This document shows, one piece after another, positions 49,625-53,770 of a DNA stretch of 64,000 nucleotides (within the stretch, counting starts at the first letter, position 1; each line of letters begins with the position of its first letter). The stretch comes from Lactobacillus kefiranofaciens. Its GTDB lineage: Bacteria > Bacillota > Bacilli > Lactobacillales > Lactobacillaceae. The notes beneath the pieces are model-generated. The model did not search any database, was not told the origin of the DNA, and saw nothing but the letters and a program-made list of their open reading frames with translations. The translations under genes and the position numbers were made by a program. The stretch lies in NCBI RefSeq assembly GCF_900103655.1, contig NZ_FMXC01000005.1, positions 1 through 64,000 of the forward strand, written 5' to 3'.

Positions 49625-49655
49625 TAAGACGAGGAGCAACTCCTTGTCTTTTAAA
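49625..49655. terminator. Terminator facing the NERD gene
   Basis: AAGACGAGGA/TCCTTGTCTT stem (one G-T pair) with T runs on both strands, abutting the stop of the NERD gene. Confidence 0.75.
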
Positions 49656-50520
49656 TTTCGTCAAAAATATCTTTTTTAATGCAATGCTTTTCATAATACC
49701 GATCTGTATTCGTAAAATGTCTAACCTGCTGATAGAATTTACGCCAATAACGGTAATGCTTGTACTGTTTTTGCCATTTACGTGCTTCAGTTAAATACTT
49801 ATCAAGTAATTTATTAATATGATTAATATGCTTGATTACCTGATTAGCGTGATATAGCTGTTCATTAATTGCTTGTTGACTAAGGTGGGAATCATCAAAT
49901 AATAATACATTTGTGGAATATACTTTTTCATTACTGAGAACATTATAATCAGTTAGTTCATTTTCTATTGCTGAAATTTCTTCATCATACAGGCCAAAAT
50001 TAGCTTTAGCTTGTACAAATAAAGATTGTAGATCTGCAAGCTGAGCAACCTCAATGCCGACTTTTTGGTAACGTTCCGTTTTTTCTAAAATAAAATCTTT
50101 TTCAGTCCGGCTGACAAAAACGACTATATTCCGAATTAGTTGATCGATATTCACTCGTTTTAACAGAGCAATAATAATTGGGTTATTGCTTTTATTAAGT
50201 ACGTACTTGATGCTTTCCTTATGTTTAGCTACCTGATCTGCCAGCTCATCATAATCTGTGAGAGCATTATATTTACCAGCTGAGGTCGACCTTGCCTTGG
50301 TCTCAATACAAAAAATACCACTTGAGGCAATCACTAAATGGTCAATTTGATTACTATCTAAACTGTCTTGTTTCTCATAAGGATATGGCAAAATCAAATT
50401 ATGCAATAATACTTTACCAGACTGTACTTGACGTACTTTTCGATTAACTAATTCCTCTGCTGCACTACCAGCTAAGAGATTGCTTGCTTGCCGCAAATCT
50501 CGTTTAGACAAAATATCCAT
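49651..50520 (-). CDS. NERD-domain (nuclease-related) protein
   Basis: 289 residues. The NERD domain covers about residues 15-130, with the core QIDHLVIASSGIFCIETKAR holding the D...E-x-K signature of the PD-(D/E)xK nuclease fold. The rest is helical and rich in tyrosine, lysine and histidine (KWQKQYKHYRYWRKFY), fit for nucleic acid contact. No helicase domain is attached. Its ATG directly follows the TAG of the upstream gene, so the two are translated together, and both lie behind a LexA-like operator. A role in DNA damage or DNA uptake control is inference. Confidence 0.8.
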   Translation of the reverse strand: MDILSKRDLRQASNLLAGSAAEELVNRKVRQVQSGKVLLHNLILPYPYEKQDSLDSNQIDHLVIASSGIFCIETKARSTSAGKYNALTDYDELADQVAKHKESIKYVLNKSNNPIIIALLKRVNIDQLIRNIVVFVSRTEKDFILEKTERYQKVGIEVAQLADLQSLFVQAKANFGLYDEEISAIENELTDYNVLSNEKVYSTNVLLFDDSHLSQQAINEQLYHANQVIKHINHINKLLDKYLTEARKWQKQYKHYRYWRKFYQQVRHFTNTDRYYEKHCIKKDIFDEI

Positions 50521-51288
50521 CTAATGCAGTGATTTAATTTTACCCAAATGTAAGTCAGTCATTCTCTTTTGAAAATCAGCTACTGTTTTATTATACGTAT
50601 TAAAACCTGAATTAATTGCACTAATTCGTAATACATTTCGCACATTTAATGCTCGTCTTAAATCCTGTTTTTTCGAAAAACTAATCTTCTCAGCCTGCAT
50701 AATTGAATGGACGGCGTCAGTATCAGTAATGCCGCCACGTTTAACCCATTCTCTTTGACAAGTAGCATGATTCTCAACTTCATTGGCATATTGTTTAAGA
50801 TCATCTTCTAATGGTACTAGAATCTCTTTGCCTTCTCGAACCATTGAACCATAATACTGCAACTTAGTCTTAACATCAGCCAACGATGAAACTTGCCGAT
50901 GTCCATAGTAATAGAATTCTGCTTTTTCTTTTGACTCATTCCAATAAGTCTTACGAAAATAATGCCCGTCAGTTAACCCAAATTCTATTATTTCAAAAAT
51001 ACTGCGATCTAAATGGTATTTAATTAAATAGTGACAGTGCCCTCGCTGATCAAAAATTCTGCGTTTAATATAACCTGGTCGCATTAACTCAATAATTTGA
51101 AATTTTAATCCCCGTTGATTAGGAAATCTATAAGGCAAGCGTTGCCCTGCTAACTTTTCTATCTTATTCAGTTCTTCTTTATCTATTTCACTTAGCGTAA
51201 TTGGTTTCATTTTATTTTTGGCATTAACTACTCGAAAAAAACAATAGGTTAAAATACCTATTGTAAATGTAATGATTGTAATATCCAT
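50521..51288 (-). CDS. Unknown 255-aa membrane-anchored protein, partner of the NERD gene
   Basis: One N-terminal TM helix (ITIITFTIGILTYCFFRVV), then a charged soluble domain of about 225 residues with no motif I recognise. There are several tyrosine/histidine clusters (FYYYGHRQVSS) and a basic C-terminus. First gene of the two-gene NERD operon. The N-terminal helix would place the nuclease complex at the membrane if the two proteins interact, which is a guess. Confidence 0.65.
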   Translation of the reverse strand: MDITIITFTIGILTYCFFRVVNAKNKMKPITLSEIDKEELNKIEKLAGQRLPYRFPNQRGLKFQIIELMRPGYIKRRIFDQRGHCHYLIKYHLDRSIFEIIEFGLTDGHYFRKTYWNESKEKAEFYYYGHRQVSSLADVKTKLQYYGSMVREGKEILVPLEDDLKQYANEVENHATCQREWVKRGGITDTDAVHSIMQAEKISFSKKQDLRRALNVRNVLRISAINSGFNTYNKTVADFQKRMTDLHLGKIKSLH

Positions 51289-51304: not shown

Positions 51305-51328
51305 TTGTTTGAACGTATGTTTAAACAA
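51305..51328 (-). promoter_or_regulatory. LexA/SOS-box-like palindrome over the start of the NERD operon
   Basis: TTGTTTGAAC-GTAT-GTTTAAACAA: 10-bp arms with one mismatch around a 4-base centre. The core GAAC-N4-GTTT differs by one base from the Gram-positive LexA site (CGAAC-N4-GTTCG), and its GTAT centre fits the RNRY rule. It lies just downstream of an extended -10 box (TGGTATAAT, 51342-51334), on the expected start of transcription. Confidence 0.55.
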
Positions 51329-51357
51329 TACTCATTATACCATGCATTTGTATAATC

Positions 51358-51391
51358 GAAAAGCCCCATGATTCACACACCATGAGACTTC
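51358..51391 (-). terminator. Terminator after recD2
   Basis: AGTCTCATG/CATGGGGCT stem (G-T pairs) with short T run on the minus strand. Confidence 0.65.
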
Positions 51392-51394
51392 TTA

Positions 51395-53770
51395 CTATAA
51401 TTTAATATTTTCCATACCGATCATCGGATCAATTGCTCCTGAATAAATTTTATCTGGAGTTAGTATATAATCCTCTGTCTGTTTTTCCATTGGTTCTTGT
51501 TCAACGACAGTCTTTTCTTCTTTTTCAGTTGTTTCTACTGGCTTAGGACTGTTATCTCGCTCTAATTTCATGTCTAATTGCTGACAGATCTTTTGCGCTA
51601 AGCCTGTCTTACGATCATTACCGGGCGTCTTAAAGGCGGCTACAAATGCTCGCGGATCACCCACAAGTACCAGATTTTTTTCAGCACGAGTTATCGCAGT
51701 ATATAACAAATTACGTTTGAGCATAACGAAATTCTGCATTGTTAGATTTAAAATTACTAGAGGAAACTCTGATCCTTGAGACTTATGAATAGTAATTGCA
51801 TAAGCTCGCGTCAGATCCCCCAAATCTTTGCGATCAAAAGTAACTTCGCGTACATCAAAATCTGCTACCATGCATTCTTTAGATCTATCTTCGTCAATAC
51901 TAAGAATTTTACCGATCTGACCATTATAAATATCTTTCTCTGGATTATTCTGGAGCTGCAGAATCCTGTCTCCAATGCGGAAAATTTCACTATGCATTTC
52001 TAATTGCTTGCTTTTAGCTTTAGGCGGATTCAAAATTTCCTGAATAATATCATTTAAATTATTAACGCCACCATTACCATGGTACATTGCGCCTAATACT
52101 TGAATATCGTCTTCATTAAAACCACGTTTTAGTGCTAATTTAACTATTTGACCAACCGCATCCCCAACTAAATCTGGTCGGCAACTAATAAATGAATAAT
52201 TTTTCGTTTTCTTAAAAAGAGCCTGCTCATTTTTGCCTTCATTGACATCATGGGCCAATGTGATGATAGTTGAATCATCCCCTTGTCGATGAATTTGCTT
52301 TAAAATCGTGGTAGGAAATGCATGTGACTTAATCAAGTCACTAAAGACATTCCCAGCGCCAACGGAAGGCAATTGATCTTTATCTCCGACAAAAACAATG
52401 TGTCTTGTTTGGTTGATACTAAATAAAAGTTGCTTAAACAAAAACATATCAACCATCGACATCTCATCGATAATTAAAATCTCACCGTTTAACTCATTCA
52501 GATCTTCTGCTCTAGTTTCACCAATACCTAAACCCAACAAGCGATGAATGGTCTTGGCACTAATACCAGTTATCTCACCCATTCTCTTAGCCGCCCTACC
52601 AGTTGGAGCAGCTAGCAAAAATGGAGGATCTTCGCTATATAACGCAGAAGCAGGGATATTAGCCAATTTCCTTAACACAAGCAGAATTCCATTAATAATG
52701 GTGGTTTTCCCCGTACCAGGTCCACCTGTCAAGATGGAAATAGGATGCGTTAGTGCGTTCTTAATAGCCAATTTTTGGGTATCATCATAGTTAATCTTTA
52801 GCTCTTTTTCAGCATCTTGAATTGCTTGCTCGACTTGAGAATCATTGTATTGTTCATCTTCCTGCAACTTACGACTTGCAACTAAATTCTTCATAGCACG
52901 CGCAATATCCAGCTCTGTTTGAAAAATATTTTGCAATGCGGCATGATTGCCATCAACTACTACCTTGCCAGCCTCTTGTAAGTCATTAATACAATTAGCA
53001 ATTGGATCAAACTGCGTGATATCTAACAACTTGCTGGCATCAGTCAAAAGTTCAGCTAAACCAACATAAGTATCTCCTGCGCCAGTTAAAGCATCAAGCA
53101 ATACTTGATAAATTGCACCTTTAATTCGACGAGGATCATCCTGCTTAATTTCTAGCTGTTTACCAATCGTATCAGCAGTCTTAAACGCAAAACCCGCAAT
53201 TTCATTGACTGCGGCATAAGGATCTTTTTCTAATTTAGCAATACTTTCACCATGATAAAGTTGATAAACATGCTCTGCTACTCGCTTATTTACCCCATAT
53301 TGAGCTAATTTTAGAACAACCTCAGAATAAGAGTCCATCGCATTTAAACCTGATAGCAAGCTGTCTTTTTGTTTTTTGCTAATTGATAAGGTATCAATCT
53401 TTGCAGGATTTTCTTTTAAAATGTCTAATGCATCTAAGCCAAGTTCATCAATAATTGTTGTTGCGGCTTTTTTACCAATGCCTGGAAAGTTGCTTGAACT
53501 TAAGTACTTAGTTAAAGACCCCTCCTCATGCGGTAAAATTTGCTTGTAGCTAGTTGCTCTGAACTGCAAGCCAAACTTTTCATGCATGACTAATCTACCT
53601 TCAAAGTGGTAGCTAGAAAGGATTTGAATATCGCCAAAACTACCAGTTACTTTGATTTCATCACGTGAATAATTTTCAAGTGAGCCAATAATTTCAACAT
53701 CTAAAATTTTATATAAATCCTGATCGTTTTCAAAAACTATACCATTAACTTTACCGGTGAATTCAACCAT
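51395..53770 (-). CDS. recD2: RecD-like SF1B DNA helicase RecD2
   Basis: A 5'-3' helicase used in replication-fork repair in bacteria lacking RecBC. 791 residues: N-terminal OB-like and helix-hairpin-helix region (SNFPGIGKKAATTII), Walker A GGPGTGKTTIING, Walker B LIIDEMSMVD, and late motifs QNNPEKDIYNGQIG, AYAITIHKSQGSEF and YTAITRAEK. It is complete. The ATG overlaps the stop of the TPR gene upstream. Confidence 0.95.
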   Translation of the reverse strand: MVEFTGKVNGIVFENDQDLYKILDVEIIGSLENYSRDEIKVTGSFGDIQILSSYHFEGRLVMHEKFGLQFRATSYKQILPHEEGSLTKYLSSSNFPGIGKKAATTIIDELGLDALDILKENPAKIDTLSISKKQKDSLLSGLNAMDSYSEVVLKLAQYGVNKRVAEHVYQLYHGESIAKLEKDPYAAVNEIAGFAFKTADTIGKQLEIKQDDPRRIKGAIYQVLLDALTGAGDTYVGLAELLTDASKLLDITQFDPIANCINDLQEAGKVVVDGNHAALQNIFQTELDIARAMKNLVASRKLQEDEQYNDSQVEQAIQDAEKELKINYDDTQKLAIKNALTHPISILTGGPGTGKTTIINGILLVLRKLANIPASALYSEDPPFLLAAPTGRAAKRMGEITGISAKTIHRLLGLGIGETRAEDLNELNGEILIIDEMSMVDMFLFKQLLFSINQTRHIVFVGDKDQLPSVGAGNVFSDLIKSHAFPTTILKQIHRQGDDSTIITLAHDVNEGKNEQALFKKTKNYSFISCRPDLVGDAVGQIVKLALKRGFNEDDIQVLGAMYHGNGGVNNLNDIIQEILNPPKAKSKQLEMHSEIFRIGDRILQLQNNPEKDIYNGQIGKILSIDEDRSKECMVADFDVREVTFDRKDLGDLTRAYAITIHKSQGSEFPLVILNLTMQNFVMLKRNLLYTAITRAEKNLVLVGDPRAFVAAFKTPGNDRKTGLAQKICQQLDMKLERDNSPKPVETTEKEEKTVVEQEPMEKQTEDYILTPDKIYSGAIDPMIGMENIKL

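Follow-up and report, generated by a model that had tools for sequence, protein, structure and literature searches.

The window, that is, the whole stretch of DNA analysed here, comprises 64,000 nucleotides of the Lactobacillus kefiranofaciens contig NZ_FMXC01000005.1. On its minus strand, recD2 (51395..53770), which encodes an SF1B helicase (TIGR01448, E=8.8e-231), is the next gene upstream of the locus under study, as the original prediction had stated. Downstream of it, likewise on the minus strand, lie two open frames. The first (50521..51288) encodes 255 amino acids with an N-terminal membrane helix and an unnamed domain, and the second (49651..50520) encodes 289 amino acids. The two frames are in phase and are divided only by a TAG codon (50521-50523, minus strand), which is directly followed by the ATG of the second frame.

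These frames had been described as a two-gene operon. To see what they correspond to elsewhere, the 255-amino-acid first half was compared with 75 genomes of the genus. Apart from the window genome itself, this gave close relatives in six cases (57-68% identity) and distant ones in three. In all six close relatives the gene is one continuous frame of 545-547 codons that runs through the NERD part; a sense codon stands at the place of the TAG, and the methionine with which the second half of the window copy starts is conserved in each of them. Moreover, the full-length profile match to the window copy contains '1 TAG', so that the profile also reads one gene. The two-gene operon was therefore rejected: the in-frame stop made one gene look like a pair.

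The stop codon speaks against the window genome making a functional full-length protein, and the best reading is that the window copy is split, inactivated or misassembled, an error of the draft assembly being among the options. The evidence is evenly balanced as to whether the copy is a recently formed pseudogene, or a product of misassembly, with an intact operator that drives nothing useful and a NERD half that is at best weakly translated, a reading that is compatible with LexA control. A single in-frame TAG in a frame intact in six of six relatives is what would be expected then, and a convincing ribosome-binding site was not seen ahead of the internal ATG. However, the conserved methionine directly after the stop allows a coupled restart, and both halves are still 57-69% identical to the relatives, with dN/dS of about 0.07-0.30 (an estimate of low power, dS being saturated and one estimate having failed). 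Because of this similarity and the low dN/dS, the split looks either recent or artefactual.

A NERD protein with a predicted membrane anchor and its distribution

The membrane helix is predicted at residues 5-21 of the first half (51226..51276, minus strand), where hydropathy peaks with a mean of 1.93 over 17 residues. Basic residues follow this hydrophobic helix, which, by the positive-inside rule, suggests that the body of the protein after the helix is cytoplasmic. The unnamed domain lies between the helix and the NERD domain and measures about 230 residues in the window copy. At E<=1 the first half matched no family of Pfam, NCBIfam or PADLOC, and neither half matched a PADLOC profile. The second frame contains the NERD domain that had been predicted for it (50116..50469, minus strand; PF08378, E=3.8e-13, 50.4 bits against a cut-off of 22.1). 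Within the domain a D-x12-E-x-K pattern is conserved, and residues E22, D60, E73 and K75 of the second frame (E278, D316, E329 and K331 of the whole protein) are present in the window and invariant in the six relatives. Judged from the clan, they are putative PD-(D/E)xK-type residues. Hence, of the membrane-tethered, nuclease-like pair originally proposed, the membrane part and the NERD part stand, and the pair becomes one protein. An AlphaFold model built on a 5-row alignment reached a pLDDT of 41, too poor for fold comparison. The two matches returned by a sequence search of the PDB (E 0.055 and 0.57) were taken as chance.

The middle domain is common to this protein and to a set of membrane NERD proteins of 731-736 amino acids (genomes G020, G042 and G058; loci L053, L054, L055 and L124), which match the window's first half with E of about 1e-8. 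In the G042 protein the NERD region is shared as well (E=1.6e-21), and a NERD domain is also present in that of G058. These proteins differ from the present one in that they are longer, are encoded at another locus and are each preceded by a smaller, different membrane protein; no GAACNNNNGTTY, the operator motif considered below, was found in the stretches of their loci that were covered. One of them was scanned and gave an amidase-like match below cut-off. In another genome (G012; L123, L125 and L126) three NERD proteins of 490-535 amino acids occur together, and in the one scanned (L126) the NERD domain is followed by a Rep3_N plasmid-initiator domain.

Leaving out the three distant relatives, close copies of the gene occur in 7 of the 75 Lactobacillus genomes, in all seven at the same place after recD2, and in a sample of 397 genomes of the family, covering 40 genera, one genus gave matches. 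In a recD2 tree the carriers group together, so that one change is needed, with weak support (71/31). They may represent one lineage and, being related, are not seven independent trials. When named genomes were scanned with the first half, no copy was found; scanning them with the full-length alignment gave three loci. These are intact copies with the same promoter and operator, in L. ultunensis DSM 16047, L. kitasatonis DSM 16761 and a Lactobacillus MAG. Their promoters are identical to those of G072, G028 and G068, which are probably the same genomes, and the three were not counted again. Phage families gave weak matches only (best E 0.0059), plasmids gave no match to the first half, and in IMG/VR a single contig matched, over query residues 274-331 only.

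Should the gene be under SOS control, as argued below, its product might act in defence or DNA entry and not in repair, as a membrane-tethered nuclease that degrades DNA of phage or other foreign origin or, once damage is heavy, that of the cell itself. The limited presence just described and the membrane anchor would agree with such a role, and a NERD domain is described at the N-terminus of PglW, a component of the Pgl phage-exclusion system (PMC9009780). We nevertheless regard this role as possible and rather unlikely: the protein lacks a PADLOC match, and next to its gene stands recD2, no other defence gene having been noticed there.

Promoter and operator upstream of the gene

The region between recD2 and the gene was analysed for structures that could govern transcription. 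Immediately 3' of recD2 lies a hairpin (51359..51392, minus strand) whose 3' arm ends in CUUUU. The minus strand from 51330 to 51394 folds at -20.6 kcal/mol (z -4.83), and a hairpin folds at this place in all seven carriers, at -15.8 to -21.6 kcal/mol. The output of a simple terminator scan does not include it; it is a probable terminator that separates the promoter from recD2. Next follows an extended -10 element, TGGTATAAT (51334..51342, minus strand), of which TGnTATAAT is invariant in 7/7 carriers; the promoter has no good -35 hexamer, and a simple promoter scan did not report it. In the stretch 51334-51356 (minus strand), a block upstream of the -10, TATACAAA, is also invariant in the seven carriers, and in the window ATTATAC and GTATAAT form a pair across the -10. 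Eleven nucleotides after TGGTATAAT on the minus strand stands the operator core, which reads GAACGTATGTTT on the plus strand (51311..51322). With a transcription start about 7 nt past the -10, the core would cover about +5 to +16.

A further terminator-like hairpin with 9 pairs and a T run lies on the sense strand within codons 9-18 of the gene itself (51234..51264, minus strand). One such hairpin was found, against 0.1 in shuffled sequences, and its stem and run of 7 T are readable in all seven carriers, with differing energies. It is possibly an attenuator or other second control, or else mere coding sequence for a conserved Thr-Tyr-x-Phe-Phe stretch.

The operator core is the centre of a 24-bp palindrome, TTGTTTGAAC-GTAT-GTTTAAACAA (51305..51328), with 10-nt arms (51305-51314 and 51319-51328) that are 90% complementary, having one mismatch, and with a 4-nt spacer. 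The palindrome and its LexA-like core had been described in this form and are borne out. Neither of them is significant by itself. The window contains nine palindromes with 10-bp arms, a 4-nt spacer and at most one mismatch, where 20 shuffled versions averaged 4.55; of the nine, only that at 51305-51328 is centred on a LexA core. As for the motif, GAACNNNNGTTY occurs once in the window, as the core itself, against 3.8 copies expected by chance. In the whole genome it gives 42 strand hits at 38 places, and the reversed control pattern is commoner (123 hits, 102 places). An argument from palindrome or motif counts was therefore rejected, both being frequent by chance. Since such counts are not improbable, position and conservation must carry the case.

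Promoters were aligned, as the original prediction had proposed, in the relatives that keep the gene, and this check was clearly passed, the site being present in all of them: GAAC-N4-GTTT stands 10-11 nt after the invariant TGnTATAAT in 7/7 genomes that have a close copy among the 75 searched. When 23 recD2 loci were compared, the seven with the gene had the site 70-76 bp after recD2, and in the 16 without the gene no site was found downstream (the G073 locus covers only about 117 bases after recD2). A chance resemblance kept by common ancestry, with no regulatory role, would agree with the motif counts and with an origin of the carriers in one lineage, but it is very improbable. The spacing to the -10 is nearly fixed, and no site was seen where the gene is absent. 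In an intergenic alignment of the seven carriers, moreover, 8/8 fixed core positions show no variation, whereas among the 89 other columns with good coverage 34 are invariant, 23 of them lying in the hairpin's end, the TATACAAA block and the -10. We conclude that the operator is real.

Relation of the operator to LexA

The window genome encodes both lexA and recA, each with GAACNNNNGTTT upstream; the individual boxes are GAACGCCTGTTT at lexA and GAACGCTCGTTT at recA. Loci of the two genes were drawn from 70 genomes with a match for each gene, and a box of the same kind was found at lexA in 27/30 genus loci and at recA in 26/30. The three lexA loci without it (L062, L079 and L083) are truncated, with unreliable coordinates; those at recA are L087, L088, L103 and L115. 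In this genus the GTTT half is usual at lexA and frequent at recA, within a palindrome of GAAC-N4-GTTC type.

From 17 distinct lexA boxes and 14 distinct recA boxes a matrix was built, the window genome's own boxes being left out. The site at 51311..51322 scores 13.2, the highest value in the window (the next is 9.5) and the 11th among the 38 motif places of the genome. The recA boxes of the genus span 12.4-17.3 and so include this value; the lexA boxes (14.6-17.4) all score higher, and the genome's own boxes at lexA (16.1) and recA (16.35) exceed it by about 3 units. The comparison with genuine LexA sites, which had been proposed as a check, is thus favourable to the site only in part. The boxes of the seven carriers score 11.4-14.6, and those of three relatives, at 11.4-11.9, lie below the recA range. 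A medium rather than a strong LexA box is plausible on these figures. Two Y-family polymerase genes were found in the genome (L044 and L045), and no exact GAACNNNNGTTY is present upstream of either; short AACAARTG-like repeats precede the L045 gene instead.

It might be supposed that the operator serves a repressor other than LexA, one that uses the entire 24-bp palindrome, because in the window the palindrome reaches well past the LexA core. In the other six carriers, however, this extension is not conserved: the outer arms and the flanks vary while the eight LexA positions are invariant, and the core is of the type found at lexA and recA in the genus. A regulator that needs the whole palindrome is unlikely, its arms not being conserved, and a repressor other than LexA is scarcely to be expected. 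Taken together, the LexA reading of the operator is well supported by these sequence comparisons.

To see whether this arrangement is general among NERD genes, the order was searched for others: 34 genomes gave 132 matches, and 29 loci, belonging to other families, were scanned. A LexA-type box within 250 bp upstream was found in 0/29, in a scan blind to boxes that precede a longer operon and in genomes that may or may not use LexA with such a box. General SOS control of NERD genes was thus not seen in the loci scanned. The present protein shares with other NERD proteins the domain match above cut-off and the conserved D-x12-E-x-K; it differs in that its NERD domain is preceded by a membrane helix and an unnamed domain, and in its LexA-type box.

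Predicted SOS control and other LexA-type boxes

The reading that we prefer, with a probability of about three in four, is that the locus is a lineage-specific, LexA-controlled single gene for a membrane-anchored NERD protein. The gene would be transcribed from its own extended -10 promoter, behind the hairpin that ends recD2. We infer that LexA binds the 12-bp core just downstream of the -10 and blocks transcription there. After DNA damage, self-cleavage of LexA stimulated by RecA, as in established SOS biology, would lift this repression. The product would be a NERD protein that is anchored in the membrane and probably lies in the cytoplasm. Its PD-(D/E)xK signature is intact, and it would most likely be a nuclease or DNA-binding effector that acts on DNA near the membrane in damaged cells. 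In the window genome it would be made either as two polypeptides, given a ribosomal restart at the ATG next to the stop, or as one truncated polypeptide. The observation behind the original prediction is in this way partly confirmed, and its interpretation as a new SOS function is partly supported.

A bolder form of the preferred reading, which we consider doubtful, would make the protein an SOS effector of a new kind. It would be a PD-(D/E)xK nuclease tethered to the membrane and controlled by LexA, and in damaged cells it would destroy the DNA located there, whether that of an escaping prophage, DNA entering from outside or the trapped chromosome of the cell itself. The hairpin early in the gene would then be a second lock, and the gene would have been acquired once, in one Lactobacillus lineage, and would now be splitting into an anchor and a free nuclease.

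YneA and SosA are SOS-induced, LexA-controlled membrane proteins of Gram-positive bacteria; they have a single N-terminal helix and are small division inhibitors. The protein described here resembles them in its (predicted) LexA control and in its single N-terminal membrane helix. It differs from these small division inhibitors in its size, 545-547 amino acids, and in carrying a nuclease-like domain.

A LexA regulon projected from B. subtilis has been described in Lactobacillaceae, in all 15 genomes studied (Ravcheev et al. 2013, PMC3616900), with 13 predicted target operons that include parEC, addBA and nrnA (PMC3616900). The words NERD and nuclease are absent from the main text of PMC3616900; the gene could appear under another name in its supplementary tables or in RegPrecise. 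A literature search that covered few subscription journals gave no paper whose title or opening abstract lines concern control of a NERD gene by LexA, the SOS response or DNA damage. If the preferred reading is confirmed, a membrane-anchored NERD protein joins the SOS output of lactobacilli. Little is known of what NERD domains do; an operator for LexA would link one of them to DNA damage and so offer an easily applied condition for testing its function.

Scanning the genome for the motif also brought up LexA-type boxes at other genes. The top-scoring motif of the genome, GCGAACTATTGTTTGC (16.6), is located immediately beyond the plsY 3' end, on the other strand (L037:1501-1512; contig C75:8807-8818). 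A box past plsY was present in 24/30 Lactobacillus loci (L181-L210), with TATAAT close by on the same strand in 23 of the 24. A promoter there would point antisense through plsY to parE (TIGR01058), which starts about 800 nt further on. Possibly, then, a damage-induced, LexA-controlled parEC transcript runs antisense to plsY, which would agree with the prediction of parEC as a target in PMC3616900. Such a transcript could be stopped by a hairpin at the plsY end, and antisense frames of up to 80 amino acids, counted from stop to stop, are found at plsY (the plsY end is misplaced in seven genomes).

A second case is xerS, which encodes a tyrosine recombinase (NF003462). In the window genome a LexA-like box stands between its -10 and its ribosome site (L020:1501-1512). 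Among the 29 xerS loci scanned (L211-L240, one more being truncated), the box was found at -26/-27 in 10 and at -71 in one, and XerS may be damage-induced in some Lactobacillus lineages.
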